Origin: Acidobacteriota bacterium
GTDB taxonomy: Bacteria > Acidobacteriota > Vicinamibacteria > Fen-336
Assembly (NCBI GenBank): GCA_003223555.1
Contig: QHVM01000083.1
Location: 1 to 59,935, forward strand
DNA length: 59,935 bases
Direction: 5' to 3'
Positions 4,686 to 24,293 of this stretch are shown here, piece after piece; within the stretch, counting starts at the first letter, position 1; each line of letters begins with the position of its first letter. Position numbers and translations under genes: made by a program. A model generated the notes under the pieces. That model did no database searches, had not been told where the DNA came from, and worked only from the letters and a program-made list of their open reading frames with translations.

Positions 4686-5006
4686 CTACTTGCCGGGCGC
4701 GGTCCAGCCGCAGACGTCGCAGCGGGTGGAGGCGGCGGGGATGAGGCTGCCGCAGGCCGGGCACTGCATGTTGGCCGCGGGGACGCCGCCGTCCTCCGCG
4801 GTGGCGGCGGGGGCCGGCCCCTGGGGAGAATCGCGGGTCTCGGCCAGGTAGACGTCGAGGGCGTTCTCCGCGTGCAGCTCGGTGAAGCCGCAATCGGCGC
4901 ACACCCGGGCCCGGAGGTGCGCAAGCAGGCCGGAAGCCCCCGCCGCGGTGACCGGCACCGGGGGTGAGATCCGTTCCGAGCCGCACTCCCGGCACTTGTG
5001 CTCCAT
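4686..5006 (-). CDS. Zinc-ribbon protein
   Basis: A 106-residue protein with four CxxC knuckles: CREC near residue 5, CADC near 36, CPAC near 82 and CDVC near 94. They fit two zinc ribbons, joined by an Ala/Pro-rich linker. No catalytic domain is visible. Such proteins often serve as nucleic-acid- or protein-binding adaptors, but nothing here fixes a role. It is read away from the amino-acid operon; its start lies 38 bases upstream of the -35 box at 5044. About 40 bases separate it from the htpX start. Confidence 0.7.
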   Translation of the reverse strand: MEHKCRECGSERISPPVPVTAAGASGLLAHLRARVCADCGFTELHAENALDVYLAETRDSPQGPAPAATAEDGGVPAANMQCPACGSLIPAASTRCDVCGWTAPGK

Positions 5007-5043
5007 CGCCCCCGGCCGCCCCGCGGGCTGAGCCTAGCACGGC

Positions 5044-5073
5044 TTGACACTCCCTCGGCGGCTCTTCTAGAAT
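5044..5073 (+). promoter_or_regulatory. Sigma70-like promoter of the aro-his-trp supraoperon
   Basis: A perfect -35 hexamer TTGACA at 5044-5049 is followed, after 18 bases, by TAGAAT at 5068-5073 (one mismatch to TATAAT). The predicted transcription start is near 5080, giving about 18 untranslated bases before the leader-peptide ATG at 5098. It is the best promoter-like sequence before the 21.6 kb operon, and its spacing to the attenuator is as expected. Confidence 0.8.
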
Positions 5074-5097
5074 CCGCCTTTGGCGCTGGAAGTCGAC

Positions 5098-5190
5098 ATG
5101 TTCTCCCGCACGCAGACCGCGACCACCGACCGAAGGGCGGCCTCCGTGCGTCGCTGGCGTCCGATCTTTCACCGCTACCACCGCACGTAG
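5098..5190 (+). CDS. Attenuator leader peptide rich in Trp, Phe, His, Tyr
   Basis: A 30-codon open frame, ATG 5098-5100 to TAG 5188-5190, preceded by GGAAG at 5088-5092 as a plausible ribosome binding site. The peptide is unremarkable until its end, where Trp20 (5155-5157), Phe24 (5167-5169), His25 (5170-5172), Tyr27 (5176-5178) and His28 (5179-5181) cluster within eleven residues. These are the end products of the genes downstream (trp, his, tyrA, chorismate mutase, DAHP synthase). In known his, trp and phe operons ribosome stalling at such codons controls a following terminator. Position between a promoter and an intrinsic terminator supports that role. No homologue comparison was possible, so function is inferred from composition and context. 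Confidence 0.75.
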   Translation: MFSRTQTATTDRRAASVRRWRPIFHRYHRT

Positions 5191-5228
5191 CGGCGCAGCC
5201 GGGAGGCCCGGCCGCGCGGCGGAGCGGG
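5172..5228 (+). other. Upstream leader RNA hairpins (candidate control stems)
   Basis: Several alternative stems can be drawn between the leader-peptide end and the antiterminator. CCGCTAC at 5172-5178 pairs perfectly with GTAGCGG at 5187-5193, spanning the Tyr and His codons and the stop. GCCGGG 5198-5203 pairs with CCCGGC 5207-5212. CCCG 5207-5210 and CCGC 5212-5215 can instead pair with 5219-5228, touching the antiterminator's 5' end. 5172-5184 can also pair with 5216-5227 with one bulge and one mismatch. This ladder resembles his-type leaders. Which stems form is not decided here. Confidence 0.5.
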
Positions 5229-5273
5229 TTTCCTGGAGAGATCGGACGGCAGTGAGGCCTCTTCAGGGAACCC
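5226..5273 (+). promoter_or_regulatory. Antiterminator pairing of the leader RNA
   Basis: GGGTTTCCTGGAGAG at 5226-5240 is complementary over all 15 bases to CTCTTCAGGGAACCC at 5259-5273, counting two G-U wobbles. The right arm is the same strand that forms the terminator stem, so the two structures exclude each other. This is the expected geometry of an attenuator switch. Confidence 0.75.
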
Positions 5274-5287
5274 TGAAGAGGCTTTTT
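5257..5287 (+). terminator. Rho-independent terminator (attenuator) before aroDE
   Basis: GCCTCTTCAGGG (5257-5268) and CCCTGAAGAGGC (5271-5282) form a perfect 12-bp inverted repeat with an AA centre, directly followed by TTTTT (5283-5287). It sits 67 bases after the leader-peptide stop and 26 bases before the aroDE start, so termination here would silence the whole operon. Confidence 0.9.
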
Positions 5288-5313
5288 CATTTGGACCGTC
5301 GGGATTCGAGCGC

Positions 5314-6786
5314 ATGACCCAGATCTGCGTCAGCCTGACCGAGGAGACGACCGCCGGGGTCGTCGAGCGCATGGCCGATCTGGCCGGCATCGCCGACCTG
5401 TTCGAGGTGCGGGCCGACTTCGTCCTGGACCTCGACCTGCTCACCATCCTGCGCGGGCGGACCCGTCCCATCCTGCTCACCTGCCGGGCCGCCTCGGAGG
5501 GGGGACGCCTGGCCGACGACGACCCCCGGCGGCGGATGACGCTGCTGGAGGCGGTCAAGCGCGGCTTCGACTACGTGGACGTCGAGTACCGCAGCGCCTT
5601 CGTGGACGTGATGGTGGAGAAGGCCGGCCGCGGCCTGGTCGTCTCCTACCACGACCTGAAAGGCACCCCGGAGGACCTCGACGGCTTCTACGCCGCCATG
5701 CGCGAGCGCGGGGCCGACGTGGTGAAGATCGCCGTCACCCCGCGCTCGATCCGGGACGTGGGGCGCCTGCTCGACTTCGCCGCCCGCACCGCGGCCGCCG
5801 GAGGTCCGCCCCTGGTCCCCATCGCGCTGGGACCGCTCGGCGTCGTGACCCGCATCGCGGCCGGGCGGTGGGGAGCGCCCTTCACGTTCGCCTCGGCGGC
5901 GCGCGGCGCGGAGACTTCCCCCGGCCAGATCCCGGCCGCCGAGATGGCCGACCTGTACCGGGCCCGCGACGTCAACCCGCTGACGAAGGTCTTCGGCGTC
6001 CTCGGCACGGACGTCGTCTGGAGCCTCTCGCCGGTCCTGCACAACCGGGCCTTCGAGGCGCGGCGGCTCGACGCCGTCTACGTGCCCCTGCAGGCCGACT
6101 CCCTGGAGGGCTTCCTGGAGGCGCTGCCCGCCCTGGCCCTCTCCGGCTTCAGCGTCACCCGGCCCTTCAAGGTGGACATCGTGCCCCACCTGCAGGAGGT
6201 GGAGGAGCCGGCCGCCCTCAGCGGAAGCGTCAACACCGTGGTCGTCCACGACGGCGCCCTGCGCGGGTCCACCACCGACGGCATCGGCGTCCTGGCTCCC
6301 CTCAAGAAGCGGCTCGACGTGAAAGGACGCGCGGTCGTGATCCTCGGTGCGGGGGGCGCCGCCCGGGCGGCCGCGCTGGCCCTCAAGCGCAAGGGAGCCC
6401 GGGTCACGCTCGTGGCCCGCCGGAGCGGGCAGGCCGCGTCGGTGGCCTCCGCCCTCGGCTGCGCCCACGCCGGGCTGCCGGATCTGCCTCGGCTCGCCTG
6501 GGACGTGCTCATCAACGCGACCCCGGCGGGGTCCGCCGCCCATCCCGACGAGAGCCCGTTCCCCGCGAAGCACCGGCCGGGCACGGTGGTGCTGGACATG
6601 GTCTACGAGCCGCTGGAGACGCGCTTCCTGCGCGACGCGCAGCAGGCGGGCTGCACGATCATCGACGGCCTCGAGATGCTGCTCGCCCAGGCGGTGGCGC
6701 AGTTCGAGACCTGGACCGGTCTCGAGGCCCCGCTGGACGTGATGAAGTCGGCCGCGCTCTTCCTGGCCCAGGAGCAGGAAGCGTGA
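5314..6786 (+). CDS. aroDE: Bifunctional 3-dehydroquinate dehydratase / shikimate dehydrogenase
   Basis: Catalyses shikimate-pathway steps three and four in one 490-residue chain. Residues 1-215 are a type I (Schiff-base) dehydroquinase, with EVRADF near the start, catalytic His113 in VVSYHDLKGTPE and Schiff-base Lys138 in VVKIAVTP. Residues about 225-490 are shikimate dehydrogenase: SLSPVLHN shikimate pocket (Ser237, Ser239), SVTRPFK with the catalytic Lys, STTDGIG, and the NADP loop ILGAGGAARAA. The AroD-AroE fusion is known from plants and some bacteria. First gene after the attenuator; its TGA overlaps the next GTG. Confidence 0.94.
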   Translation: MTQICVSLTEETTAGVVERMADLAGIADLFEVRADFVLDLDLLTILRGRTRPILLTCRAASEGGRLADDDPRRRMTLLEAVKRGFDYVDVEYRSAFVDVMVEKAGRGLVVSYHDLKGTPEDLDGFYAAMRERGADVVKIAVTPRSIRDVGRLLDFAARTAAAGGPPLVPIALGPLGVVTRIAAGRWGAPFTFASAARGAETSPGQIPAAEMADLYRARDVNPLTKVFGVLGTDVVWSLSPVLHNRAFEARRLDAVYVPLQADSLEGFLEALPALALSGFSVTRPFKVDIVPHLQEVEEPAALSGSVNTVVVHDGALRGSTTDGIGVLAPLKKRLDVKGRAVVILGAGGAARAAALALKRKGARVTLVARRSGQAASVASALGCAHAGLPDLPRLAWDVLINATPAGSAAHPDESPFPAKHRPGTVVLDMVYEPLETRFLRDAQQAGCTIIDGLEMLLAQAVAQFETWTGLEAPLDVMKSAALFLAQEQEA

Positions 6787-7802
6787 GCGCCGGCCGCTAC
6801 TCGCGCCAGGAGCTTTTCGCTCCCATCGGCCCCGAGGGGCAGGCCCGCCTGCGCCGCGCGCGGGTGGCCGTCGTCGGCTGCGGCGCCCTCGGCTCCACGC
6901 TGGCCGAGATGATGGTCCGCTCCGGCGTGGGCGCGCTCACCGTGATCGACCGGGACTACGTCGAGGAGTCCAACCTCCAGCGCCAGTCCCTCTTCGACGA
7001 GGAGGACGCGGAGCGCGGCCTGCCCAAGGCGGCGGCGGCGGAGAGGCGGCTGAAGCAGGTCAACTCCGAGGTGGCGGTGCGGGGCGTCGTGGCCGACCTC
7101 GCGGCCGACAACGCGGCCGAGCTGCTGCAGGGGGCGGACCTGGTCCTCGACGGTACCGACAACTTCGAGACGCGTTTCCTCCTCAACGACGTGTGCGTGA
7201 AGGGCGGCGTGCCTTGGGTCTACGGGGCCTGCGTCGGATCGTACGGGCTGGCCCTGCTCGTCCGGCCACGGGTGAGCCCCTGCCTGCGCTGCGTGCTGGA
7301 GGAGATGCCGGGCCCGGGCGGGCCGACCTGCGACACGGTGGGCGTGGTCGCCCCTGTCGTGCACGTGGTGGCGGGAGTGCAGGCGGCCGAGGGGTTGAAG
7401 CTGCTCTCCGGCCGCACCTCAGACCTGCTGCCGGGCGTGGTGAGCGTCGACCTGTGGCGGGGACGGTTCGAGGTCATGGACCTCGGCGGTCGCGCGCCGT
7501 GGTGCCCGGCCTGCACGGAGGGCCGGTACGACTACCTGGAGGCCGGGACGGGGACCGGCTCCGCCGTCCTGTGCGGCCGCGACGCGGTGCAGGTGCGTCC
7601 GCCGCGGGGGACGCGCGTGGACCTGCCGGCCCTGGCCGGCCGGCTGTCGGCCTCCGGCGACGTGGCGGCCAACGAGCACCTCGTCCGCTTCCGCGCGCCG
7701 GGAGCGGAGATGGTCGTCTTCGGCGACGGCCGCGCGATCGTCAAGGGCGTGAAGGATGCCGCCCAGGCCCGCTCGCTCTACGCCCGCTACGTGGGGAGCT
7801 AG
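6783..7802 (+). CDS. ThiF/MoeB-like E1-type adenylyltransferase
   Basis: A 339-residue ATP-dependent enzyme that adenylates the C-terminus of a small sulfur-carrier protein (ThiS, MoaD or a similar partner). RYSRQELF starts the fold, followed by the ATP loop VVGCGALGS, the ESNLQRQ arginine block, DGTDNFETRFLLND, and two zinc knuckles (CLRC near residue 175 and CPAC near 240). After the zinc site there is an extra C-terminal part of about 85 residues with no rhodanese active-site cysteine that I can see. The GTG start overlaps the aroDE stop (GTGA), so it is translationally coupled within an amino-acid operon, where no obvious sulfur-transfer step exists. It could serve thiamine, molybdopterin or an unrelated carrier; I cannot choose. 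Confidence 0.82.
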   Translation: MSAGRYSRQELFAPIGPEGQARLRRARVAVVGCGALGSTLAEMMVRSGVGALTVIDRDYVEESNLQRQSLFDEEDAERGLPKAAAAERRLKQVNSEVAVRGVVADLAADNAAELLQGADLVLDGTDNFETRFLLNDVCVKGGVPWVYGACVGSYGLALLVRPRVSPCLRCVLEEMPGPGGPTCDTVGVVAPVVHVVAGVQAAEGLKLLSGRTSDLLPGVVSVDLWRGRFEVMDLGGRAPWCPACTEGRYDYLEAGTGTGSAVLCGRDAVQVRPPRGTRVDLPALAGRLSASGDVAANEHLVRFRAPGAEMVVFGDGRAIVKGVKDAAQARSLYARYVGS

Positions 7803-7806
7803 GGCC

Positions 7807-8919
7807 ATGAACGGCGTGTCGCACCGGCTGGTGCAGGTCCCCCCGGGCGTGCAGTGCTTCGTGGGCGACGAAGCGCGGCGACGGCGGCAGATCGAGGCCG
7901 ACGTGATCGCGGTCTTCGAGGGCTGGGACTATGAGGAGATCATCCCGCCGCTCTTCGACTACGCGGACGTGTTCTCCAGCCGGGCCCTGCTGCCCAAGAC
8001 CTATTCCTTCGTGGGTCGCGACGGAAGCCTTCTCGCACTCCGTCCCGACTTCACGAGCCTGCTGGCCAAGATCGCCGCCGGCCGGCTGGCCGGCCGGCCC
8101 GCGCCGATCCGTCTCTATTACTCCGGGGAGGTCCTGCGCTACGAGCCGCCCCGGGCGGGGAGGCAGAGCGAGCTGTTCCAGATGGGGCTCGAGCACCTCG
8201 GCGGGGAAGCTCGCGCCGCCGACGCCGAAGTGCTCGCCATCGCGGCCGAGTGCCTCGACGGGCTGGGCGTGCGCGGCTTCGTCCTCGCCCTCGGGCACGT
8301 GGGCGTCTTCGGCGGGCTGCTGGCGGGGGTGGACCTCGATGCGGCGACGCTCGAGCGGCTGCGGGAGCGGGTGGAGGCGAAGGACCCGGCGGGGGTCCGC
8401 GACGCCCTGCCGTCCGGCCGGTTGCCGGAGCGGATCGCCGAGGCGCTGGTCCGGCTCGCGACGCTCTCCGGGGATGCGGGGGTCCTGGCCGATGCCGAGC
8501 AGGACCTGTCGTTCTGCCCTCCCGCCCGCGCCGCGCTGGCCGAGCTGACGCAGGTGATCGAGACGCTGCAATCCGCGGGACTCGGGCCCGGCCTCACGGT
8601 GGACCTGTCGGAGGTACGGGGCCTCGACTACTACACCGGCCTCGTGTTCCGCGCCTACGCGCCGGGCCTCGGCTTCGAGGTCGGAGGGGGAGGGCGCTAC
8701 GACACGCTGCTGGCCCGCTTCGGGCGGCCCATGCCCGCGGTCGGCTTCATGCTCGGCCTCGACCGCCTCGCTCTCCTGCTCGAGCGGCAGGGAGCGCGGC
8801 CGTCCGCGCCGCCGTCGCCGGCGGAGGTCGTGGGCGGCGGGGGTCTCGGGCGGGCCCTGGAGCGCGCCCGAGGCAAGCGGGCGGCCGGGACGCGCGTGCG
8901 GTTCGAGGGACGCCCGTGA
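7807..8919 (+). CDS. hisZ: ATP phosphoribosyltransferase regulatory subunit
   Basis: HisZ is a histidyl-tRNA-synthetase paralogue without aminoacylation activity. It forms a complex with short-form HisG and confers histidine feedback on the first step of histidine synthesis. The 370 residues show the class II fold: RPDFTSLLAKI, the motif-2 region YYSGEVLRYEPPRAG with QMGLEHLG, and LDYYTGLVFRAYAPG with GGGGRYD of motif 3. It lacks the anticodon-binding domain, as HisZ should. The ATG start at 7807 is four bases after the ThiF-like stop; the end overlaps hisG by GTGA. The short HisG next door confirms the assignment. Confidence 0.93.
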   Translation: MNGVSHRLVQVPPGVQCFVGDEARRRRQIEADVIAVFEGWDYEEIIPPLFDYADVFSSRALLPKTYSFVGRDGSLLALRPDFTSLLAKIAAGRLAGRPAPIRLYYSGEVLRYEPPRAGRQSELFQMGLEHLGGEARAADAEVLAIAAECLDGLGVRGFVLALGHVGVFGGLLAGVDLDAATLERLRERVEAKDPAGVRDALPSGRLPERIAEALVRLATLSGDAGVLADAEQDLSFCPPARAALAELTQVIETLQSAGLGPGLTVDLSEVRGLDYYTGLVFRAYAPGLGFEVGGGGRYDTLLARFGRPMPAVGFMLGLDRLALLLERQGARPSAPPSPAEVVGGGGLGRALERARGKRAAGTRVRFEGRP

Positions 8920-9533
8920 GCCTGACCATCGCCCTCTCGAAGGGCAAGCTGCTGGCGGGCACGGAGGAGCTGTTCCTCCGCGCGGGGCTGCCGTTCCCGG
9001 CCCGCGAGGGCCGGCGGCTCGTGGTGCCGGTCGACGGGCTCCGCTTCCTGCTCGTGAAGGACATGGACGTCCCGACCTACGTCGAGCACGGCGTCGCCGA
9101 CTGCGGCGTGGCCGGCCGCGACGTCCTGCTGGAGTTGGAGCCGGACGTCTACGAGCCGGTGGACCTCGGCTTCGGCCGCTGCCGGCTGGTGGTGGCCCGG
9201 AAGCGGGGAGCCGCCGCCGCGGCGGCGGCGTCCACCGTGCGCGTGGCGACCAAGTACCCGCGCGTCGCCTCCGCCCACTTCCTCGAGCGCGGCCGCTCCG
9301 TGGAAGTGGTGAGGCTGGCCGGATCGGTGGAGCTGGCGCCCGGCCTGGGACTGGCCGACTGCATCGTGGACGTGGTGGAGACGGGGCGGACGCTGGCCGA
9401 GAACGGCCTGGAGGTGGCGGAGGAGGTGGCGGCCTCGTCGGCCCGGCTCATCGTCAACCGCGCCAGCTACCACGCGCGGCGGGACGAGATGTCGCGCCTG
9501 CTGGGCGCGATCGCGAAGGCGAGGACCGCGTGA
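8916..9533 (+). CDS. hisG: ATP phosphoribosyltransferase catalytic subunit (short form)
   Basis: Condenses ATP with PRPP, the committed step of histidine synthesis. At 205 residues it is the short form, lacking the C-terminal regulatory domain, and so depends on HisZ upstream. Visible are the N-terminal IALSKGKL, the substrate-site GVADCGVAGRDVLLE, VATKYPRVASAHF, and the PRPP-binding GLADCIVDVVETGRTL. The GTG start overlaps the hisZ stop and the final TGA overlaps the hisD GTG. Confidence 0.95.
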   Translation: MSLTIALSKGKLLAGTEELFLRAGLPFPAREGRRLVVPVDGLRFLLVKDMDVPTYVEHGVADCGVAGRDVLLELEPDVYEPVDLGFGRCRLVVARKRGAAAAAAASTVRVATKYPRVASAHFLERGRSVEVVRLAGSVELAPGLGLADCIVDVVETGRTLAENGLEVAEEVAASSARLIVNRASYHARRDEMSRLLGAIAKARTA

Positions 9534-10819
9534 GGGTCGTGCGCTACGGCACGGCGGCCTGGCGGCGCTACCGCGAGGCTCGTCCGCGCGCCGGCCCGGC
9601 CCCGCCCGCCGTGGAGAGGGCCGTGGCCTCGATCCTCCGCCAGGTGCGGCGGGAGGGAGACGGCGCCCTCGTCCGGCTCTCGGCCCGCTTCGACGGGGTC
9701 CGGGTGCCGGCGCCGGAGCTGCGCGCCGCGCCAGCGGCGATCCGCGCGCTGGCCGGTCGGGCCGAGCCGGCCGTCGTCGCGTCGCTGCGCGCGATGGCGG
9801 CCCGGATCGAGGCCTACCACCGCCGCCAGCGTGACCGCGGCTTCCGCTTCCACCTCCGCGACGGCTCGCTCCTCGAAGAGCAGGTGAGGGCCCTCGACTC
9901 GGTCGGGCTCTACGTCCCGGGCGGCGCGGGCGCCTATCCCTCCTCGGTCCTGATGAGCGCGATCCCGGCCCGGGTGGCGGGCGTGCCCCGGATCCAGGTC
10001 GCGACGCCGCCCCGCACGCTGGAGGCGAGCCCGGTCGTGGCGGCCGCCCTGGTGCTCGTGGGCCTCGAGGGCTCCGTCTTCCGCGTCGGCGGCGCCCAGG
10101 CCGTGGCCGCGTTCGCCTTCGGCACGCGCACCGTCCCCGCGGTGGCCAAGGTCGTCGGTCCCGGAAACGCGTTCGTCGCCGAGGCCAAGCGGCAGGTGCG
10201 GGGGACGGTGGAGATCGACCAGCAGGCCGGGCCGAGCGAGGTGGTCGTCCTCGCCGACGAGACGGCCGATGCGGCCTGGGTGGCGGCCGACCTCCTGGCC
10301 CAGGCCGAGCATGGAAGCGGCGACGAGGCGGCCGTGCTCGTCACTCCCTCGGCGGCGCTGGCCGTCGAGGTACGGCGCCGGGTGGCCGCGGGCCTCGGCT
10401 CGGTCGCCAACGCCGCGGCCGCCCGGCGCGCGCTGGCGCGGTACGGCGCGGTGGTGCTGGTGCGCGACCTCGACGAGGCGGTGGCGGCCGTCAACGAGCT
10501 GGCGCCCGAGCACGCCGAGCTGATGGCGCGCGGCGCCGCGCAGCAGGCGCCGAAGATCGTGGCCGGAGCCGTCTTCGTGGGGCCGTGGGCTCCGGTGGCG
10601 GTCGGGGACTACGGGATCGGGCCCAACCACATCCTGCCCACCGGCGGCACCGCGCGGCGCTCCTCGCCGCTCTCCGTGCGGGACTTCCAGCGGCGGCAGA
10701 GCCTGGTGCGGATGACGCGATCCGGGCTGCGGCGGGCGGCGCCGGGCATGGTACGGGTCGCGACGGCCGAGGGGTTCCCGGGCCATGCGGAGAGCCTGCG
10801 GATACGGCTGAATAGATGA
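9530..10819 (+). CDS. hisD: Histidinol dehydrogenase
   Basis: Zinc enzyme that oxidises L-histidinol in two NAD-dependent steps to L-histidine. The 429 residues contain the NAD/zinc-site blocks GLYVPGGAGAYPSSVLM, VVGPGNAFVAEAKRQV, IDQQAGPSEVVVLAD, LLAQAEHGSG (zinc ligands Gln and His) and the catalytic EL.PEHAEL. Length is standard. The GTG start overlaps hisG (GTGA) and the stop overlaps hisC (ATGA), so the three genes are coupled. Confidence 0.95.
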   Translation: MRVVRYGTAAWRRYREARPRAGPAPPAVERAVASILRQVRREGDGALVRLSARFDGVRVPAPELRAAPAAIRALAGRAEPAVVASLRAMAARIEAYHRRQRDRGFRFHLRDGSLLEEQVRALDSVGLYVPGGAGAYPSSVLMSAIPARVAGVPRIQVATPPRTLEASPVVAAALVLVGLEGSVFRVGGAQAVAAFAFGTRTVPAVAKVVGPGNAFVAEAKRQVRGTVEIDQQAGPSEVVVLADETADAAWVAADLLAQAEHGSGDEAAVLVTPSAALAVEVRRRVAAGLGSVANAAAARRALARYGAVVLVRDLDEAVAAVNELAPEHAELMARGAAQQAPKIVAGAVFVGPWAPVAVGDYGIGPNHILPTGGTARRSSPLSVRDFQRRQSLVRMTRSGLRRAAPGMVRVATAEGFPGHAESLRIRLNR

Positions 10820-11910
10820 CGATGGAGCCCCTGCGCCACATCAAGCCGTCCGTGCGGTCGATCGCCGCCTACACGCTGGCCGCCCGCCCGGCCGCGGTGA
10901 AGCTCAACCAGAACGAGAACCCCTACGACCTGCCCGACGCGGTGAAGGAGCGCGTGGTGCAGAAGGCGCTGGCGCGGCCGTGGGCGCGCTATCCGGAGTT
11001 CGATCCCCGCGAGCTCATCGAGCAGCTGGCCGCCTTCGCCGGCTGGAGACCGGACGGCGTCCTGGCCGGCAACGGCTCGAACGAGCTGATCGAAGCGTTG
11101 CTGCTGGTGACGGTGGGACCGGGGACGCGGGTCGTCATACCGGAGCCGACCTTCACGCTCTACGCCCTCCTCACCAGGGTCCTGGGCGGTGAAACGATCC
11201 GCGTGGGACTGGGCCCCGAGCTGGAGTACCAGCCGGAAGAGCTGCGGAGGGTGCGCCGCGAGCTTTCGGCGCCGCTGACCGTGGTGTGCTCGCCCAACAA
11301 CCCGACCGGCGGCCTGCTCGCCGCCGACGAGCTGGCGCGGCTCTGCGAGGAGGCGGACGGGCTCGTGGCCGTGGACGAGGCCTACCACGAGTTCTCCGGC
11401 CAGTCGGCCGTGCCGCTCCTCGCGCGGCATCCCAACCTCGTCGTCCTGCGGACGTTCTCGAAGGCCATGGCCCTGGCCGGCCTGCGGGTCGGGTACCTGC
11501 TGGCGTCGCCCGAGATCGTCCGGGAGGTCAACAAGGCGCGCCTGCCCTACAACCTCGACTTCTTCTCCGAGGCGGCGGCGCTGGCCGCGCTCGCGGAGTG
11601 GCCGGTCCTGCGGGCCAACGTCGAGAAGATCGTCGGCGCCCGCGACGACCTGCTCCACCGCCTCTACCGCATCCCCGGCGTCCGCCCGTATCCCTCGAAG
11701 GCCAACTTCATCCTGCTCGAGCTGGCGGAGGCCGATCCCCGGACGGTGTTCGAGTCGGTGTACCGCCGCGGCGTGCTCGTGCGGGACGTGACCTCCTACC
11801 CGCGGCTCCAGCGCTGCCTGCGGGTGACGGTCGGCTCCGAGGCGGAGAACGAGACCTTCCTCTCCGCGCTCCGGCACGCCCTCGAGGAGCGGCGGTTCGC
11901 GAGGGCATGA
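10816..11910 (+). CDS. hisC: Histidinol-phosphate aminotransferase
   Basis: PLP enzyme converting imidazole-acetol phosphate to histidinol phosphate. In many bacteria HisC also transaminates phenylpyruvate or hydroxyphenylpyruvate, which would fit this mixed aromatic/histidine operon. The 364 residues show KLNQNENPY at the N-terminus, SPNNPTGG, VDEAYHEFSG (PLP pyridine Asp) and the Schiff-base lysine in RTFSKAMALAGLRVGY. Coupled to hisD and hisB by ATGA overlaps. Confidence 0.94.
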   Translation: MTMEPLRHIKPSVRSIAAYTLAARPAAVKLNQNENPYDLPDAVKERVVQKALARPWARYPEFDPRELIEQLAAFAGWRPDGVLAGNGSNELIEALLLVTVGPGTRVVIPEPTFTLYALLTRVLGGETIRVGLGPELEYQPEELRRVRRELSAPLTVVCSPNNPTGGLLAADELARLCEEADGLVAVDEAYHEFSGQSAVPLLARHPNLVVLRTFSKAMALAGLRVGYLLASPEIVREVNKARLPYNLDFFSEAAALAALAEWPVLRANVEKIVGARDDLLHRLYRIPGVRPYPSKANFILLELAEADPRTVFESVYRRGVLVRDVTSYPRLQRCLRVTVGSEAENETFLSALRHALEERRFARA

Positions 11911-12500
11911 TGGCGGCGCGGCAGGCCTCGATCGAGCGCAAGACGCGCGAGACGGACATCCGCCTGCGCCTCGGACTCGACGGCGAGGGAAGGAGCCGCA
12001 TCGCCACCGGCATCGGCTTCTTCGACCACATGCTCACCGCATTCGCGACCCATGGCCGCTTCGATCTCGACCTGCGCTGCCGGGGCGACCTCGACGTCGA
12101 CGCCCACCACAGCGTCGAGGACGTGGGGATCGTGATCGGACAGGCCCTGCGCCAGGCGCTGGGGGAGAAGAAGGGGATCGTGCGCTTCGGCCACGCGTAC
12201 GTGCCGCTCGACGAGGCGCTCTCCCGCTGCGTGGTCGACCTCTCCGGCCGCCCGTACCTCCACTACGACGTGACGTTCAAGGCGAGGCAGATCGGGGCCA
12301 TGCCCACCGAGCTGTTCGAGGACTTCTTCTGGGCCCTGGCCGACCACGGCCGACTGAACATCCACCTCGAGGCCATCCGCGGCCGCAACGCGCACCACGT
12401 CGCGGAGACCCTCTTCAAGGCCGTCTCGCGCGCCCTGGCCATGGCCGTGGCCCGTGACCCGAGAGTGAAGGGGATACCCAGCACAAAGGGCTCTCTATGA
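11907..12500 (+). CDS. hisB: Imidazoleglycerol-phosphate dehydratase
   Basis: Manganese enzyme of histidine synthesis, converting imidazole glycerol phosphate to imidazole acetol phosphate. The 197 residues hold the metal-binding histidine motifs GFFDHMLTAFATHG, DAHHSVEDVGIVIGQAL, and ADHGRLN with RNAHHVAE. It is the monofunctional form, with no N-terminal histidinol-phosphate phosphatase domain. Start ATG 11907 (a second ATG follows at 11910). Its stop overlaps the ATG of a small open frame, not directly hisH. Confidence 0.95.
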   Translation: MMAARQASIERKTRETDIRLRLGLDGEGRSRIATGIGFFDHMLTAFATHGRFDLDLRCRGDLDVDAHHSVEDVGIVIGQALRQALGEKKGIVRFGHAYVPLDEALSRCVVDLSGRPYLHYDVTFKARQIGAMPTELFEDFFWALADHGRLNIHLEAIRGRNAHHVAETLFKAVSRALAMAVARDPRVKGIPSTKGSL

Positions 12501-12655
12501 ACGCCGTTGGAGCGCCCGCAGGTCGGACCTCCATGCCGCCCGAGCGGAATCCACTTCCGCGAGGGCGGAACATCGATGGAGGTGTCCGACCGAGGACGCG
12601 GATTTCAGGCCCGACGCCGCGCGCTGGCTTTGGCGTCGGGCCGCGTTCAAATTGA
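12497..12655 (+). CDS. 52-codon open frame coupling hisB to hisH (palindrome-derived)
   Basis: The only sizeable gap inside the operon is entirely open in one frame. An ATG at 12497 overlaps the hisB stop (ATGA), and the frame runs to TGA at 12653-12655, two bases before the hisH ATG. The product is Arg/Pro/Gly-rich, with no recognisable domain, and is built from palindromic repeat sequence. It may be translated merely to carry ribosomes across the insertion, or not at all. No homologue is recognised. Confidence 0.3.
   Translation: MNAVGAPAGRTSMPPERNPLPRGRNIDGGVRPRTRISGPTPRAGFGVGPRSN
12504..12600 (+). repeat. Palindromic repeat element, copy A (hisB-hisH gap)
   Basis: Contains GCGGAA-TCCAC-TTCCGC at 12544-12560, nested in near-complementary outer arms at 12521-12532 and 12578-12591. 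It shares CCGTTGGAGCGCCCGC (12504-12519) exactly with 48696-48711, and GTCCGACCGAGG (12584-12595) exactly with 22081-22092. From 12514 on it aligns along its length with copy B in the chorismate mutase gene, at perhaps two-thirds identity by eye. Confidence 0.7.
12608..12642 (+). repeat. 11-bp perfect hairpin upstream of hisH
   Basis: GGCCCGACGCC at 12608-12618 pairs perfectly with GGCGTCGGGCC at 12632-12642 around a 13-base loop. No T-run follows, so it is not an intrinsic terminator. It directly precedes hisH, which lacks an obvious ribosome binding site. Possible RNA-processing or stability element, or part of the inserted repeat. Confidence 0.55.
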
Positions 12656-12657
12656 AG

Positions 12658-13308
12658 ATGATTGCCATCGTCGACTACGGCCTCGGGAACCTGGGCAGCG
12701 TGACCAAGGGCTTCCGTCACTCGGGCGCCGGGACCCGGCTCACGGGCGACCCCGACGAGCTGCGCTCGGCCTCCGCGCTCGTCCTGCCCGGAGACGGCGC
12801 CTTCGGCGCCACCATGGACGAGATCCGCCGCCGCGGCCTCGTGTCGCCCATCGAGGACGCGGTCGCGCGCGGCGTGCCGGTGCTGGGGATCTGCATCGGC
12901 ATGCAGGTCCTCTTCGAGGAGAGCGAGGAGCACGGCCGGCACGTCGGCCTCGGGCTCCTGCCCGGGCGCGTGCGCCGCCTGCCCGCCGGCCGGCCCGTCC
13001 CCCACATGGGCTGGAACGTCCTGCGGCCGAGGCGGGTCCATCCGCTGCTCGACGGGATCGCCTCCGGGGACTACGTCTACTTCGTGCACTCGTACTACTG
13101 CGAGGCCGCGCCGGCGGTGGTGCTGGCCGACACCGACTACGGCCTGGATTTCCCGGCCGTCGTCGGCCGCGGCTCCGTCCTCGGCATGCAGTTCCACCCC
13201 GAGAAGAGCCAGGCGGTGGGCCTGCGGCTCCTCGACAACTTCGTCCGCCTGTGCGGGGGAAAGGCAACCGTCACCGAAACGGCCGCGGTCACGGAGAGGC
13301 GGCCGTGA
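12658..13308 (+). CDS. hisH: Imidazole glycerol phosphate synthase, glutaminase subunit
   Basis: Provides ammonia from glutamine to HisF. The 216 residues are a class I amidotransferase: [11 protein letters not shown] start, nucleophile Cys79 in [26 protein letters not shown], and the His-Glu pair in FHPEKSQ. I take ATG 12658 as the start; an in-frame TTG at 12652 is the alternative, and neither has a clear Shine-Dalgarno, consistent with coupling from upstream. The C-terminus, after LCGG, carries about 14 extra residues. The stop overlaps the hisA GTG. Confidence 0.95.
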
Positions 13309-14023
13309 TCGTGGTCGCCGCGATCGACGTGCGGGGCGGCCGGGTGGTCCGCCTGAAGCAGGGCGAGCTTCGGGAGGAGCAGGTCTACGGGTCCGATCCC
13401 GCCGAGGCCGCCCGGCGGTGGGAGGCGGAGGGCGCGACGCGCCTGCACCTGGTCGACCTGGATGCCGCGATCTCCAGCCGGCCGCAGTTCGCGGCGATGG
13501 AGAAGGTCATCGCGGCGGTAAAGGTTCCCGTCGAGGTGGGGGGAGGCCTGCGCGCGCTGGAAGACGCGATGCGATACCGCGACCGCGGCGCCGACCGCGT
13601 CATCTTCGGCACGGCGGCCGTGGCCAACCCCGGCGTGGTGCAGGAGGCCGTGCGGCTCTGGCCGCAGGCGGTGGCGGTGGCCCTCGACGCCCGCGACGGG
13701 CGGGTGGCCGTGGCGGGCTGGAAGGAGATCACCACCCTCACGGCCGTCGAGCTGGCCCGGCAGGTCAAGGCCTGGTGCGTGCCGCGGATCCAGTACACCG
13801 ACGTCGTGCGCGACGGGACGCTGGTGGGGCCGAACCTGGCCGGCGTCGAGGAGCTCGCCCGCGCGAGCGGCCTGCGCGTCACCGCCGCCGGCGGCTTCTC
13901 GTCGCTGGAGGATCTGCGCCGGCTGCGGCCGCTGGAATCGGTGGGGGTCGACGAGGTCGTGCTGGGAAAGGCGCTCTACGAGAAGCGCTTCACCCTCGCC
14001 CAGGCCGCGGAGGCGGTGCGCTG

Positions 14024-14024
<1 letters not shown>
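13305..14024 (+). CDS. hisA: ProFAR isomerase (HisA)
   Basis: TIM-barrel isomerase converting ProFAR to PRFAR. The 239 residues begin [13 protein letters not shown], where the first Asp is the catalytic base position. VEVGGGLR is the phosphate loop, [15 protein letters not shown] carries the second catalytic Asp, and AAGGFSS is the second phosphate loop. Usual sequences read IDLKDG at the start, so IDVRGG is a mild variant. The GTG start overlaps hisH (GTGA) and the stop overlaps the hisF ATG by one base. Confidence 0.95.
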
Positions 14025-14802
<778 letters not shown>

Positions 14803-14806
<4 letters not shown>

Positions 14807-15413
14807 CCGTGGTCATGCCCGGATCGCTGGCCTTCGACGCGGCCGGCCTGCTCCCGGTCGTCGTCCAGGAGGCCGGCAGCGGCGACGTGCTCATGGTGGC
14901 CTGGGCGAACCGGGAGGCGCTCGAGCGCACCGCGGAGACGGGGCTGGCCCACTTCTGGAGCCGCAGCCGCGGCGCGCTGTGGCGCAAGGGCGAGACTTCC
15001 GGCCACCAGATGAGCGTGCGCGAGATGCGGGCCGACTGCGATCGCGACGCCCTCCTCATGGTCGTCGATCCGGCCGGCCCGGCCTGCCATACGGGGAGCC
15101 GCACGTGCTTCGGCGACGACAGCGCGACCGCGGCCGGCATCCTGGCCGAGCTGGAGCGCGTGATCGCCTCCCGCTCCGGCGCCGATCCCGCGTCCTCCTA
15201 TACGGCCCGGCTCCTGGCCCGGGGCCCCGACCAGGTCCTGAAGAAGATCGGCGAGGAGGCCACGGAGGTCGTGCTGGCCGCCAAGTCGGAGAGCGACGAG
15301 CGGCTGGCCGAGGAGGTGGCCGACCTGCTCTATCACCTGATGGTGGCCCTGGCCCAGCGAAAGGTGCCCCTCACCCGCGCGCTGGAGGTGCTGCGGGAGC
15401 GGAGGCGAGCGAG

Positions 15414-15417
<4 letters not shown>
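14803..15417 (+). CDS. hisIE: Bifunctional phosphoribosyl-AMP cyclohydrolase / phosphoribosyl-ATP pyrophosphatase
   Basis: Carries out steps two and three of histidine synthesis. The 204 residues contain HisI (about 1-115) with [29 protein letters not shown], the zinc-site DCDRDALLM and CHTGSRTCF, then HisE (about 118-204) with [15 protein letters not shown] and [15 protein letters not shown] 14803 overlaps hisF; ATG 14815 is an alternative start. The stop overlaps trpE by ATGA, joining the his and trp blocks without a gap. Confidence 0.94.
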
Positions 15418-16834
<1,417 letters not shown>

Positions 16835-16835
<1 letters not shown>

Positions 16836-17449
16836 TGGCGAGAAACGAGAAGGGCGCCGTCCTGCTCATCGACAACTACGACTCGTTCACATACAACCTC
16901 TATCAATACCTGGGAGAGCTGGGGGCGGAGACGGACGTGGTGCGCAACGACCAGATCAGCGTGGAGGAGGCGCTCGCGCGCCGACCGTCGGCCATCGTCA
17001 TCTCGCCCGGCCCCGGCACGCCCGACCAGGCGGGCATCACGCTCGACCTCATCCGGGCCGCCGCCGGACGAGTGGCGATCCTGGGCGTCTGCCTCGGCCA
17101 CCAGGCCCTCGGGCAGGCCTTCGGGGGCCAGGTCGTGCGGGCCCCGAAGCTGATGCACGGCAAGGTGTCGGAGGTCCGCCACGACGGGCGGACGATCTTC
17201 GCCGGGCTGCCGGGGCCCCTCACCGCCACCCGCTATCACTCGCTGGTGGTGGCGCGCGAGGGCCTGCCCGCCTGCCTGGAGGTCTCGGCGTGGACCGAGG
17301 ACGGCGTCGTCATGGGCCTGCGCCACCGGGAGCTGCCCCTCGAAGGCGTGCAGTTCCATCCGGAGAGCATCCTGACCACGGCCGGAAAGCAATTGCTCCG
17401 CAACTTCCTCGACGGGACGGCGCAGGGCGCGCAGGGAGCCGGGAGATGA
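16835..17449 (+). CDS. trpG: Anthranilate synthase component II (glutamine amidotransferase)
   Basis: Supplies ammonia to TrpE. The 204 residues show [16 protein letters not shown], the oxyanion SPGPGTP, nucleophile Cys86 in [26 protein letters not shown], and the His-Glu dyad in FHPESILT. The start ATG 16835 gives TGATG coupling with trpE; an in-frame GTG lies one codon earlier. Could also serve 4-amino-4-deoxychorismate synthase (PabA role), as amphibolic TrpG proteins do; no pabB is visible here. Confidence 0.95.
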
Positions 17450-18444
17450 AGCCGTACCTGGCCAAGGTCATCGGCGGCGAGCGCCTCACCGAGGAGGAGG
17501 CGGGAGCCGCGATGGCCACGATCATGGAGGGCGAGGCGACGCCGGCCCAGATCGGGGCGCTGCTGGCCGCGCTCGCGGTGCGCGGCGAGACGGAGGACGA
17601 GGTGGTCGGCTTCGCGCGGACGATGCGGTCGCGCGCGGTCCCCCTCTCCGCGCGGGGGGCGGTCGACACCTGCGGCACGGGCGGGGACGGGGCGGGCACC
17701 TTCAACATCTCCACCGTGGCCTCGCTGGTGGTCGCGGCGTGCGGCGTGCCGGTGGCCAAGCACGGCAACCGCTCGGCCAGCGGGAGCTGCGGCAGCGCCG
17801 ACCTGCTGGAGGCCCTCGGCGTGCGCATCGACGCCCCCCCCGCGACCGCCCAGCGCTCGCTCGACGAGGCCGGCTGGGCCTTCCTCTTCGCGCCCTCCTT
17901 CCACGCCGCCACCCGCCACGCGGTGGGCCCGCGCAAGGAGCTGGGCGTGCGCACCGCCTTCAACCTGCTCGGTCCCCTCACCAACCCCGCCCTGCCCACG
18001 GCCCAGGTGGTGGGCGTGCCCCGCCCGGAGCTGACCGGCTTCATTGCCCGCTGCCTGCGCAGGCTGGGGGTGCGGCGGGCGTGGGTGGCCCACGGCTCGG
18101 GCCTCGACGAGCTGTCGCTGTGTGGCCCGACCACCGTGGCCGCCTTCGACGAGAACGGGCACCGGACCTTCACCGTGCGGCCGGAGGACGCCGGGCTGGC
18201 CGCCTGCCCATCCGAGTCGCTGCGCGGCGGCGATGCGAAGGCGAGCGCCGCCATCGCCGACGAGGTCCTGCGCGGAGACCGCGGGCCGCGGCGCGACGTC
18301 GTGGTGCTGAACGCGGCCGCGGCCCTGGTCGTGGCCGGCCGGGCGGAGGACCTCCGGGACGGCGCGGCCCAGGCCGCGGCGGCCCTCGACGAGGGGCGCG
18401 CGGCCCGTCTGCTCGGGCGCGTCCGGGAGCTGTCGCGCTCGTGA
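17446..18444 (+). CDS. trpD: Anthranilate phosphoribosyltransferase
   Basis: Transfers the phosphoribosyl group of PRPP to anthranilate. The 332 residues show the PRPP-binding [18 protein letters not shown], the glycine-rich [44 protein letters not shown] and GLDELSL. Length is normal. Start and stop both overlap neighbours (ATGA with trpG, GTGA with trpCF). Confidence 0.96.
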
Positions 18445-19897
18445 GCGGCGGCAGCGACGTCCTCGCCCGCATCGTGGCCCGCACCCGGGAGAGGGTGCAG
18501 GAGCGCCGGCGGAAGCTCCCCATCGAGAAGATGCGCGCCACGTCCCCCCCGCCCGGCCTCCGCCGGCCGTTCGCCGCCGCCGCCGCGCGGGGGGGACGGG
18601 TCAACGTCATCGCGGAGTTCAAGCGGCGGTCGCCCTCGCGCGGGGTCATCCGCGAGGACCTGCATCCGGTCGAGGTCGCCCAGGCCTACGAGGTGGCCGG
18701 CGCAGCCGGCCTGTCGGTCCTCACCGAGGAGCAGTTCTTCGGAGGCAGCCTCGAGGACCTGAAGGAGGCCCACGCGGCGACGCTGCTCCCCACGCTGCGC
18801 AAGGACTTCGTCGTCGACCCCTATCAGGTCTGGGAGACGTGGCACGCGGGGGCAGACGCGCTGCTGCTCATCGCCGCCACCCTCGAAGACCGCGAGCTGC
18901 GGGAGCTGCTGGCCACGACGCGCGAGGCCGGCCTCGAAGCGCTGGTGGAGGTCCACGATCGGGCCGAGCTCGAGCGTGCGCTGGGCGCGGGGGCGCGCCT
19001 GCTCGGCGTCAACAGCCGCGACCTGCGCACGATGGAGGTCAACCTCCAGACCGCCCTCGACCTCGCGCCCCTGGTCCCCGACGACGTGGTGGCGGTGGCG
19101 GAGAGCGGCATCCGCGGACCGGGCGACCTCCGCCGCCTGCGCGAGGCCGGCTACGACGCGTTCCTCATCGGCGAGCGCCTGATGCAGGAGGCCGACCCCG
19201 GCGCCGCCCTCGAGGAGCTGATCCGCCAGTCTTCGATCCCGCGCTGGGAGGGCCGCGCCGCGCGGCGGGGACGAGTGGCGGTGAAGGTCTGCGGGATCAC
19301 CAGCATCGAGGACGGCCTGGTGGCGGCCCAGGCGGGCGCGGACGCGGTGGGCCTGGTGTTCTGGCCGGGCAGCCCGCGCCGGGTGGACCTGGCCGCCGCC
19401 CGCCGCATCGCCCGCGCCCTGCCTCCGTTCGTCCTCCGGGTGGGCGTCTTCGTCGACGCGCGGCGGGAGGAGATGGAGCGCGCGGTGACCGAAGTGGGCC
19501 TCGACCTGCTTCAGCTCCACGGCCGCGAGCCGCCGGAAGCGCTGGCCGACCTGCCGCGGCGGGCGGTGAAGGCGGTGGGGGTCGGGGAAGGCTTCACCGC
19601 CGAGCAGGCGCTGCGCTACGAAGGCCGGGCGGCCGGGATCCTCCTCGACACGCGCGCCGACGGCGGCGCGCCGGGCGGCACCGGGCAGAGCTTCGATTGG
19701 ACGCGGGTGCGGGACGTGCGCGAGAAGGCCTCCTTCCTGATGCTGGCCGGGGGCCTCAACGCCGGCAACGTCCATCGCGCGCTGACCGCGGTCCGCCCCG
19801 ACGGCGTCGACGTCTCGAGCGGCGTCGAGTCCGCGCCCGGCCGCAAGGACGCAGAGAAGGTTCGCGCGTTCGTGGCCGCGGTGCGGGAGGCGGAGAG

Positions 19898-19901
<4 letters not shown>
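18441..19901 (+). CDS. trpCF: Bifunctional indole-3-glycerol-phosphate synthase / phosphoribosylanthranilate isomerase
   Basis: Two successive tryptophan-pathway TIM barrels in one 486-residue chain. Residues 1-260 are Trp[14 protein letters not shown] with the catalytic Lys, [33 protein letters not shown] and AESGIRG. Residues about 275-486 are Trp[13 protein letters not shown] with the catalytic Cys, [45 protein letters not shown] and [11 protein letters not shown] order is the enteric arrangement; fusion is less usual outside proteobacteria. GTG 18441 overlaps trpD; TGA overlaps the trpB GTG. Confidence 0.95.
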
Positions 19902-21149
<1,248 letters not shown>

Positions 21150-21157
<8 letters not shown>

Positions 21158-21926
21158 GATCGGTGAGAGGTTCCGGCTCCTGAAGCAGCGCCGGGGCAAG
21201 GCGTTCGTGGCGTTCGTCACCGCCGGTGATCCGTCCCTCGACCGCACGGTGGAGGTGGCCGGAGAGATGGAGAAGGCCGGCGTGGACGTGCTGGAGCTGG
21301 GCGTGCCCTTCTCCGACCCGCTGGCCGATGGCCCCGTCATCCAGCGGGCCAGCGAGCGCGCCCTCGGCCGGGGCACCACGCTGGCCCGCGTGCTGGAGGC
21401 GGTCCGGCGCATCCGCGAGGCGAGCGAGCTGCCGCTGCTGCTCTTCAGCTACTTCAACCCGCTGCTCCGTTTCGGCCTCCCCGCGCTGGCCGCGGAGGCG
21501 AAGGCGGCCGGCGTCGACGGCGTCCTCGTGACCGACCTCCCGCCGGAGGAGGCGGACGGCTGGCTGGCACTCGCGCGCGCGGCCGGCCTGGACACCGTCT
21601 TCCTGGCTGCGCCGACGAGCCCCGACGACCGGCTGCGCCGGGTGGCCGAGGCTTCTCGGGGGTTCGTGTACGCGGTCAGCCGCACGGGGGTGACCGGCGA
21701 GCGCGACGCGCTCTCCGATGACGCCCGCCCGCTGCTGGCCCGGATCAAGTCCCTCACCGGCGAGCCGGTGGCGCTCGGCTTCGGCATCTCCACCCCCGCG
21801 CAGTTCGCGGCGGCGGCCTCGGTGGCCGACGGGGTGGTGGTGGGCAGCGCGCTGGTGCGCTTCCTCGAGGAGCACCCCGGTGGGGACGTCGCGGGTCAGG
21901 TGCGATGGCTCAGAAGCGCGACCTGA
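21150..21926 (+). CDS. trpA: Tryptophan synthase alpha chain
   Basis: Cleaves indole-3-glycerol phosphate to indole, which is channelled to TrpB. The 258 residues show [13 protein letters not shown], catalytic Glu in [21 protein letters not shown], catalytic Asp in [32 protein letters not shown] and [10 protein letters not shown]. Start ATG 21150 overlaps the end of trpB by 8 bases (in-frame upstream codons are spurious). The end overlaps the next gene by 22 bases. Confidence 0.95.
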
Positions 21927-22417
21927 AGGCCACCGCCGCGCCGCCCGCCGCCCCGCCGTCCAAGTCGGCGGAAGCGGCGATCGACGCGAAGCGTCGGCCG
22001 GCCGCCGACGCGCCCGAAGGGAGGGCCTCCGCTGCGCCCCGCGGGGATTCACTCCCCGCGGGGGAGGACGAAAGAGAAGCGTCCGACCGAGGGCGCGAGC
22101 GCCCGGCCACGCCCCGCGACCTGGCCGACATCGACGCTTGGCGTCGCCGCATAGATGCAATCGACGAGCAGCTCATGCGCCTGCTGAACAGCCGCTCCGC
22201 ATGCGCGGTGGAGATCGGCAAGGTCAAGCGCGCGCTGGGGCTCCCCGTGTACTCGCCCGAGCGCGAGGCGTGGATCCTGGAGCGTGTGATGCGCGAGAAC
22301 CCCGGCCCCCTGGATCCGACCGCGGTCAGGCGTGTCTTCGAGAGGATCATCGACGAGAGCCGCCGGCTGGAGCGAATGGCGGTGGACAAGGAAGGCCCCG
22401 CGCCGAAGAAGGAGTGA
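21905..22417 (+). CDS. Chorismate mutase (AroQ type) with repeat-containing N-terminal extension
   Basis: Converts chorismate to prephenate, the branch point to Phe and Tyr. Of 170 residues, the AroQ helical domain occupies about 73-160: DAWRRRIDAIDEQLMRLLNSR, EIGKVKR and PVYSPEREAWILE are the expected active-site helices (Arg and Lys positions). Residues 1-72 are Ala/Pro/Arg-rich and probably disordered; residues 36-66 are encoded by palindromic element copy B. There is no prephenate dehydratase or ACT domain, so it is a stand-alone mutase. Overlaps trpA by 22 bases; 7 bases before the DAHP synthase ATG. The real start could be downstream, because the extension has no family counterpart. Confidence 0.88.
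   Translation: MAQKRDLKATAAPPAAPPSKSAEAAIDAKRRPAADAPEGRASAAPRGDSLPAGEDEREASDRGRERPATPRDLADIDAWRRRIDAIDEQLMRLLNSRSACAVEIGKVKRALGLPVYSPEREAWILERVMRENPGPLDPTAVRRVFERIIDESRRLERMAVDKEGPAPKKE
21991..22100 (+). repeat. Palindromic repeat element, copy B (inside the chorismate mutase gene)
   Basis: An 8-bp inverted repeat GCGTCGGC/GCCGACGC (21991-21998, 22004-22011) is followed by CCCCGCGGGGA-TTCAC-TCCCCGCGGGG (22037-22063), an 11-bp perfect stem whose loop is the reverse of GTGAA seen in copies C and E. GTCCGACCGAGG at 22081-22092 is identical to copy A. The element keeps the reading frame open. Confidence 0.75.
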
Positions 22418-22424
22418 CGATTCC

Positions 22425-23492: not shown

Positions 23493-24293
23493 ATGAACGT
23501 CTTCGCGCGGCCAGCGCCGGAGGGGGCCGGCGACGCCATCGTGGTCCGCGGGCTCACCAAGCTCTTCGGCGGCCGGCCGGCCGTCGATCACGTGTCTTTC
23601 CGGGTGGCCCGGGGACGCTTCTTCGGCTTCCTGGGCCCGAACGGCGCGGGCAAGAGCACCACAATCAAGATGCTCACCGGCCTGCTGCGGCCCACCGAGG
23701 GCGAGGTGTTCATCGAGGGCCATCCGCTCGAGCGCGAGCTGCTGGCGGTCAAGCGCCTCATCGGGATCCTGCCCGAGGAGCTGCCTCTCTACGAGCGGCT
23801 GACCGGCGAGGAGTACCTCCACTTCGCGGGCCGCATGTACGGGCTCAGCCGCGAGGAGACCCGGCGGCGGACGGACGAGCTGCTGGCCTTCCTCTCCCTG
23901 GAGGAAGAGCGGGGCAAGCTGATCGTCGACTACTCGCAGGGCATGCGGAAGAAGACCGCGCTCGCCGCCGCCCTCATCCACAGCCCCCGGGTGCTCTTCC
24001 TCGACGAGCCGCTGAACGGGATCGACCCGGTCTCGGGCCGCGTGGTCACCGACCTCCTGCGCCGCCTGGCCCAGAAGGGGGTGACGATGTTCTTCACCTC
24101 CCACGTGCTCGACGTGGCCGAGCGGCTCTGCGACGAGGTGGCGATCATCGACCGCGGCCGCCTGGTCGCCCAGGGCACGCTGGCCCAGATCCGCGCCCAG
24201 CGCGAGGTGGCTCAGGACGCCTCGCTGGAGGACGTGTTCCTGAAGCTGGTGGCGGCCGACGTCAAGCGGCAGGACCTCTCGTGGATCGGCTGA
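23493..24293 (+). CDS. ABC transporter ATP-binding protein
   Basis: A 266-residue ATPase of the ABC-2/drug-exporter type. Walker A is GPNGAGKST, the Q-loop region is GILPEELPLYERLTGEEYL, the signature motif is the variant YSQGMRKK, Walker B is VLFLDEPLNGIDP, and the H-loop is FFTSHVLDVAERLCD. It starts 18 bases after aroF and its end overlaps the permease gene by 13 bases. An export or membrane-remodelling role is likely; the substrate is unknown. Its position among aromatic amino-acid genes invites the idea of an aromatic amino-acid or metabolite exporter, but that is inference only. Confidence 0.92.
   Translation: MNVFARPAPEGAGDAIVVRGLTKLFGGRPAVDHVSFRVARGRFFGFLGPNGAGKSTTIKMLTGLLRPTEGEVFIEGHPLERELLAVKRLIGILPEELPLYERLTGEEYLHFAGRMYGLSREETRRRTDELLAFLSLEEERGKLIVDYSQGMRKKTALAAALIHSPRVLFLDEPLNGIDPVSGRVVTDLLRRLAQKGVTMFFTSHVLDVAERLCDEVAIIDRGRLVAQGTLAQIRAQREVAQDASLEDVFLKLVAADVKRQDLSWIG

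Follow-up and report, generated by a model that had tools for sequence, protein, structure and literature searches.

A putative ribosome-mediated attenuator with mixed histidine and aromatic control codons upstream of an acidobacterial aro-his-trp-tyr operon

The leader and the operon in the window

The window (the whole stretch of DNA analysed, 59,935 nucleotides, corresponding to positions 1 to 59,935 of contig QHVM01000083.1 in assembly GCA_003223555.1) derives from an Acidobacteriota bacterium of the GTDB lineage Bacteria; Acidobacteriota; Vicinamibacteria; Fen-336. It contains an aro-his-trp-tyr gene cluster preceded by a leader region at 5044–5313 (Table 1). The genes from aroDE to tyrA are all encoded on the forward strand and are tightly packed over approximately 21 kb; their co-transcription is inferred. 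The widest intergenic gap (151 bases, 12501–12651) lies between hisB and hisH. This gap could house an internal promoter, and its length in relatives ranges from none to approximately 250 bases. A single copy of hisD was found, with no second one in the genome. The ThiF-family gene and the ABC-type ATPase/membrane protein pair recur in the operons of relatives, and genes of both kinds also adjoin aroDE in genomes of the sister family in which his and trp genes are missing from that position.

Table 1. Features of the leader region and the downstream operon, in coordinates of the window.
Feature	Coordinates	Strand	Details
Sigma-70-type promoter, TTGACA-N18-TAGAAT	5044–5073	+	TTGACA 5044–5049, 18-base spacer, TAGAAT 5068–5073
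Leader peptide ORF, MFSRTQTATTDRRAASVRRWRPIFHRYHRT, then stop	5098–5190	+	ATG 5098, TAG 5188–5190, 30 codons
1' strand of long-range anti-antiterminator	5151–5167	+	Contains the Trp codon; pairs with 5239–5255
Control-codon segment (W20, F24, H25, Y27, H28)	5155–5181	+	Overlaps the stall positions predicted to give the antiterminator
1:2 hairpin around the stop codon	5172–5193	+	CCGCTAC 5172–5178 with GTAGCGG 5187–5193; visible in the sequence, not significant in the pairing test
2:3 hairpin	5193–5217	+	5193–5203 with 5207–5217; supported by the pairing test
3:4 hairpin holding the start of the antiterminator arm	5207–5228	+	CCCG.CCGC with GCGG..CGGG; not significant in the pairing test
Antiterminator 4:5	5226–5273	+	5226–5240 with 5259–5273, 15 pairs including G-U
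4' strand of long-range anti-antiterminator	5239–5255	+	Just 3' of the antiterminator arm; pairs with 5151–5167; altered in silico
Intrinsic terminator 5:6	5257–5287	+	Stem 5257–5267/5272–5282, T5 at 5283–5287
aroDE, fused 3-dehydroquinate dehydratase/shikimate dehydrogenase	5314–6786	+	Pfam DHquinase_I, Shikimate_dh_N, SDH_C
ThiF-family adenylyltransferase gene, within operon	6783–7802	+	Pfam ThiF
hisZ-hisG-hisD-hisC-hisB-hisH-hisA-hisF-hisIE	7807–15417	+	hisZ, hisG and hisD by Pfam; others named from translations
trpE-trpG-trpD-trpCF-trpB-trpA	15414–21926	+	trpE by Pfam; others named from translations
Chorismate mutase and aroF (DAHP synthase)	21905–23474	+	Pfam CM_2, DAHP_synth_1
ABC-type ATPase and membrane protein	23493–25882	+	Membrane protein without Pfam match
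tyrA, prephenate dehydrogenase	25879–26646	+	Pfam PDH_N, PDH_C

An earlier note, made from the sequence alone, had proposed a promoter, a leader ORF, its control codons, a terminator and an antiterminator in this region, and all of these elements held at the positions it had given. Two criteria for an attenuator are met: the leader ORF lies between the promoter and the first gene with codons for the end products of the operon clustered in it, and an intrinsic terminator sits between the leader ORF and the first structural gene. The C-terminal end of the leader peptide reads RRWRPIFHRYHRT before the stop codon, with control codons for Trp at 5155, Phe at 5167, His at 5170, Tyr at 5176 and His at 5179. 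A third criterion is also satisfied, in that the antiterminator and the terminator are mutually exclusive, the strand 5259–5267 being common to both. A short GTG-started frame (5252–5317) also crosses the terminator, and its TGA end overlaps the aroDE start (ATGA); no counterpart was seen in genome G009, and this frame may have arisen by chance.

A chance origin of the control-codon cluster was rejected: counting both strands, the window has 1011 open stretches with a length of 14 codons or more, and only the leader had five or more W/F/H/Y codons among its last 11, with all four kinds present. The Rfam scan of the whole window gave no match to a leader family (His, Trp or Phe) at the gathering score, and that of 5000–5330 at E ≤ 10 returned nothing relevant and no curated leader family. 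A T-box riboswitch was also rejected, as no covariance-model match was obtained in either scan.

Conservation, RNA pairing and predicted switching

Sequence comparison showed that 11 family members share one layout 5' of aroDE, consisting of promoter hexamers, a leader ORF, GC-rich hairpins, an antiterminator arm and a terminator; all of them (11/11) have a TTGAC/TA-rich hexamer pair 5' of the leader. Leaders with both Trp and His codons were found in all 11 genomes, and Phe/Tyr codons were also present in nine of them. The N-terminal part of the leader differs between genomes in length and sequence, and the C-terminal W/F/H/Y segment is conserved in kind, with ends reading RRWRATVHHHRYHA, IERWRPTFHHHRHYD, VRRWRPVFRHHRYHP, VRRWRTVFHYHWHP, VRRWRAVFHYWHP, VWAWRPFFHFRYHP, VFPWRGMFHSHYRHP, FWWRSTHHRRG and VWRGSVHHHRHHS (twice). 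Among these leaders, His, Tyr and Phe appear in shuffled order and the codons used also differ, with the mix being retained. In G006 and G011, the leader ATG lies only about 7–8 bases 3' of the −10 hexamer, and the mRNA there may be leaderless or almost leaderless.

Every listed pair of the terminator is kept in 11/11 genomes, with two pairs showing compensatory double changes, and the antiterminator arm is complementary to the terminator in every genome examined. The earlier note had suggested looking 5' of aroDE in relatives for W/F/H/Y leaders followed by a terminator, and had named a lack of conservation of the W/F/H/Y cluster or of the alternative stems as grounds for refuting its claim. 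Such leaders were found in the 11 family genomes and both the cluster and the stems were conserved, so the claim was not refuted on these grounds.

The pairings were evaluated with an alignment-free duplex test, in which the energy of pairing between a genome's own two strands was compared with that between strands from different genomes; the resulting permutation p-values are not corrected for kinship between genomes. This test was used in place of column-wise pair counting on the MAFFT alignment, which was unreliable for the 2:3, 3:4 and 1:2 hairpins because their GC-rich segments were misaligned. Support was obtained for the antiterminator (own −25.1 vs. cross −22.9 kcal/mol, p = 0.0012), the terminator (p = 0.0086), the 2:3 hairpin (−20.2 vs. 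−17.0 kcal/mol, p = 0.0002) and a long-range 1':4' stem (−18.5 vs. −16.1 kcal/mol, p = 0.014). By the same test, the 3:4 hairpin fell short of significance (p = 0.078; base changes on both sides are visible in the G004 and G003 alignments) and the 1:2 hairpin was not significant (p = 0.19). The ladder of hairpins suspected in the earlier note is present, with its 3:4 and 1:2 members short of significance, and the 1':4' stem, which the note had missed, was added by our analysis. This stem joins the Trp-codon region to the segment that follows the antiterminator arm, with a pairing energy of −29.3 kcal/mol in the window, and because it crosses the antiterminator, a nested structure can contain only one of the two.

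Folding with and without a ribosome on the control codons, as the earlier note had proposed, was carried out on the window RNA up to the terminator 5' arm, with the ribosome footprint held unpaired and several mask sizes. The predicted probability of the antiterminator was about 0.8–1.0 with A-site codons 18–27 at all mask sizes tried, and was usually high at His28 as well (0.04–0.98 with the smallest mask). For masks no larger than −16/+13, the predicted value did not exceed 0.03 at codons 11–14, at the stop codon or with no ribosome present; still larger masks blurred the limits of the permissive stretch. All five control codons thus fall within the predicted permissive stretch (approximately codons 17–28). 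When part of the 4' strand was altered in silico, the probability without a ribosome rose from 0.00 to 0.99. A model folding only the RNA 3' of the ribosome was rejected for the OFF state, since it formed the antiterminator even at the stop codon, which means that the OFF state needs either the 1':4' stem or kinetic trapping.

The window was predicted to switch, and relatives did so only in part. A clear switch was predicted for G000, G009 and G010, the latter two resembling the window, while G003, G002 and G007 were predicted to turn off just past the last control codon with the shorter RNA. In the equilibrium model, the antiterminator was nearly always formed in G005 and G012 and mostly not formed in G004 and G006. 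G011 was predicted to be on only at the later His codons, with no antiterminator when stalled at Trp. For other families, the model turned off one to three codons past the last aromatic codon in 16 of the 20 genomes. Overall, the predicted coupling that gives the OFF state is convincing for the window and only partly reproduced in relatives, and physical switching remains inferred. The mode of coupling is also predicted to differ, by direct masking of the antiterminator arm in other families and by a hairpin ladder with a long-range stem here, the terminator motif being common to both.

Codon content and gene content across the class

In 41 genomes belonging to 12 other families of the class, the operon reads aroDE-trp-(chorismate mutase)-aroF-tyrA and, within the limits of each contig, includes no his genes. 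The leaders in these families are of the Trp/Tyr/Phe type, e.g., AWWWYWYPAEGA or SWWWYYAFTSTGE (WWWY/F-type), and their scored segments contained 120 Trp, 86 Phe/Tyr and 7 His codons. Nearly every one of these aromatic leaders is accompanied by a terminator, and the antiterminator arm shares sequence with the end of the leader ORF. Separate hisG genes were surveyed in 20 genomes sampled outside the family and located in 16, of which 11 had a His-rich short frame 5' of hisG (e.g., MVSTLHHAHLHHHGHHAVRQ and APRHHHRHHHHSRS), followed by a terminator in 9 of the 11.

At least two His codons were present in the control segment in 9/9 genomes with his genes in the operon vs. 1/41 without (Fisher p = 4e-9). 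The nine genomes are the family members whose contigs reach the his genes, and the p-value overstates independence, as a single gain in one clade accounts for both the his genes and the His codons. The leaders of G006 and G011, which belong to one genus, have Trp and five His codons and no Phe or Tyr. In the G006 operon, trpA is followed directly by the ABC genes, and chorismate mutase, aroF and tyrA are absent there; the G011 contig stops at trpC, and whatever follows in its operon is not visible. No strong match to tyrA was obtained anywhere in the G006 or G011 genomes; this genus may make tyrosine another way or be auxotrophic.

No recognisable leader-terminator unit precedes aroDE in G014, G016, G030 and G040, in which neither trp nor a complete his set comes after that gene; G014 and G016 are relatives from the same order, whose aroDE has no trp or his after it and neither a leader nor a terminator there. 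Likewise, no recognisable unit was seen 5' of aroDE in G034, in which the arrangement is aroDE-thiF-his. As the window's family, the other families and the G006/G011 genus each match leader codons to operon genes, sequence comparison shows that the leader codon mix follows operon gene content across the class.

The hisG of the family is of the short, hisZ-partnered kind and is 63% identical to that of sister-family genome G014. Since it is only 30–37% identical to the hisG of most other families in the class, the his genes of the window's family may have a history separate from those of other families.

Interpretation and relation to known systems

The leader is likely a ribosome-mediated transcription attenuator that combines inputs from His, Trp, Phe and Tyr, as the earlier note had proposed. 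That reading is supported, and the action of each of the four amino acids as an input remains inferred, as no expression data are available. In the proposed mechanism, transcription would begin 5' of the leader ORF, and a scarcity of charged tRNA for Trp, Phe, Tyr or His would stall the leading ribosome within codons 20–28. The stalled ribosome would cover the 1' strand and block the long-range 1':4' stem, and the freed antiterminator arm (5226–5240) would pair with the terminator 5' arm, allowing the polymerase to read through the his-trp-tyr operon. With all four amino acids plentiful, the ribosome would reach the stop codon, where the 3:4 and 1':4' pairings would trap the antiterminator arm and the terminator would form.

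By inference, the arrangement probably originated when two operons merged whose counterparts in other families of the class have separate attenuators, one of the Trp/Tyr/Phe type and one of the His type. A bolder reading, which we favour by a modest margin only, is that the leader works as a four-input OR-gate, in which a stall at Trp, Phe, Tyr or His would each open the 21-kb operon; this gate would have been born of the merger of a His-attenuated his operon with a Trp/Tyr/Phe-attenuated aro-trp-tyr operon, with the codons later tuned as genes left.

The strongest rival is that the attenuator senses no more than two amino acids, His and Trp being the likeliest, and that the Phe/Tyr codons either act weakly or are left over from the Trp/Tyr/Phe leader found across the class. 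Attenuation sensitivity depends strongly on codon position, and the control segment in the window contains a single Phe codon and a single Tyr codon. Moreover, the Corynebacterium glutamicum aroR leader (Phe-Tyr-Phe) answers Phe and not Tyr, the Tyr codon between the Phe codons conferring no Tyr response (PMC11802643, second-hand, citing Neshat 2014). However, Phe/Tyr codons are kept in 9/11 family members despite the reshuffled order, they are absent only in the genus whose operon, as seen in G006, is without the Phe/Tyr branch genes, and all five control codons fall in the stretch predicted to be permissive. We consider this rival less likely, without dismissing it.

Much less weight can be given to the view that the leader works mainly via translation control of aroDE or Rho-dependent termination, with the terminator and antiterminator being incidental. 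Several relatives show no clean switch in equilibrium folding, and leaders without intrinsic terminators exist elsewhere (PMC1262725). Nevertheless, this view is very unlikely given the U-tailed terminator with compensatory changes in 11/11 genomes, its near-universal presence beside the leaders of other families and the complementarity of the antiterminator arm to the terminator in all genomes examined. It could also be argued that the W/F/H/Y cluster merely reflects a GC-rich sequence under constraint for RNA structure, as the control codons are themselves engaged in the 1:2 and 1':4' pairings. This explanation is virtually ruled out by the rarity of such clusters in the window (1/1011 open stretches) and by the relatives, which encode the same mix by other codons and orders, the mix shifting with operon content.

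The reading as an attenuator of mixed input can be compared with several known systems. The enterobacterial hisL attenuator has His codons in its leader ORF, an alternating hairpin ladder and an intrinsic terminator, as here; however, hisL reads His only, whereas in the present leader Trp, Phe and Tyr codons are mixed in and no Rfam leader family is matched. Escherichia coli trpL and pheL and C. glutamicum trpL and aroR (PMC11802643) likewise place aromatic control codons before aromatic biosynthesis genes and rely on stall-dependent antitermination, but the trpL, pheL and aroR leaders read one amino acid, or Phe with an inactive Tyr codon, lack His and precede far smaller operons. Single leaders with codons for several amino acids are known from E. 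coli ilvGMEDA and thr. In those cases, the amino acids share one pathway, whereas His and the aromatic amino acids are made by separate pathways, linked mainly via PRPP and hisC-type aminotransferases.

Among supraoperons, that of Desulfovibrio vulgaris (aroA'-aroB'-aroQ/pheA-aroF-tyrA-trp), for which an attenuator before the joined aromatic operon has been proposed, has no his genes and no mixed leader reported (PMC1173090). Of the described aromatic supraoperons for which an attenuator is suspected, it is the nearest, and it is closest in kind to the state in the other families of the class. The Bacillus subtilis aro-trp-hisC-tyrA-aroE supraoperon brings together trp, tyr and aro genes with one his-type gene (PMC1173090); however, it is controlled by the TRAP protein rather than by ribosome stalling, and it includes hisC only and not the full his pathway.

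Ribosome-mediated attenuation is a known kind of control, and for a mixed His/aromatic leader, which here apparently arose from merged operons, no description was found in the literature searched, although the search covered open-licence papers only and is weak evidence of absence. A 2010 survey of predicted attenuators listed almost none with an assigned function in Acidobacteria (PMC2965389); aromatic leaders are now listed for 41 genomes of one class of this phylum, and His-rich leaders for 11 of the 16 genomes checked. The mixed leader would extend attenuation to a case in which one RNA switch governs two separate pathways together, and the theory of multi-codon leaders becomes testable with respect to the number and order of inputs per stall window. 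The class may also serve as a natural experiment on attenuator evolution, since it contains unfused operons that each have their own leader, a fused operon whose leader is combined, and a genus losing Phe/Tyr genes together with the corresponding codons.
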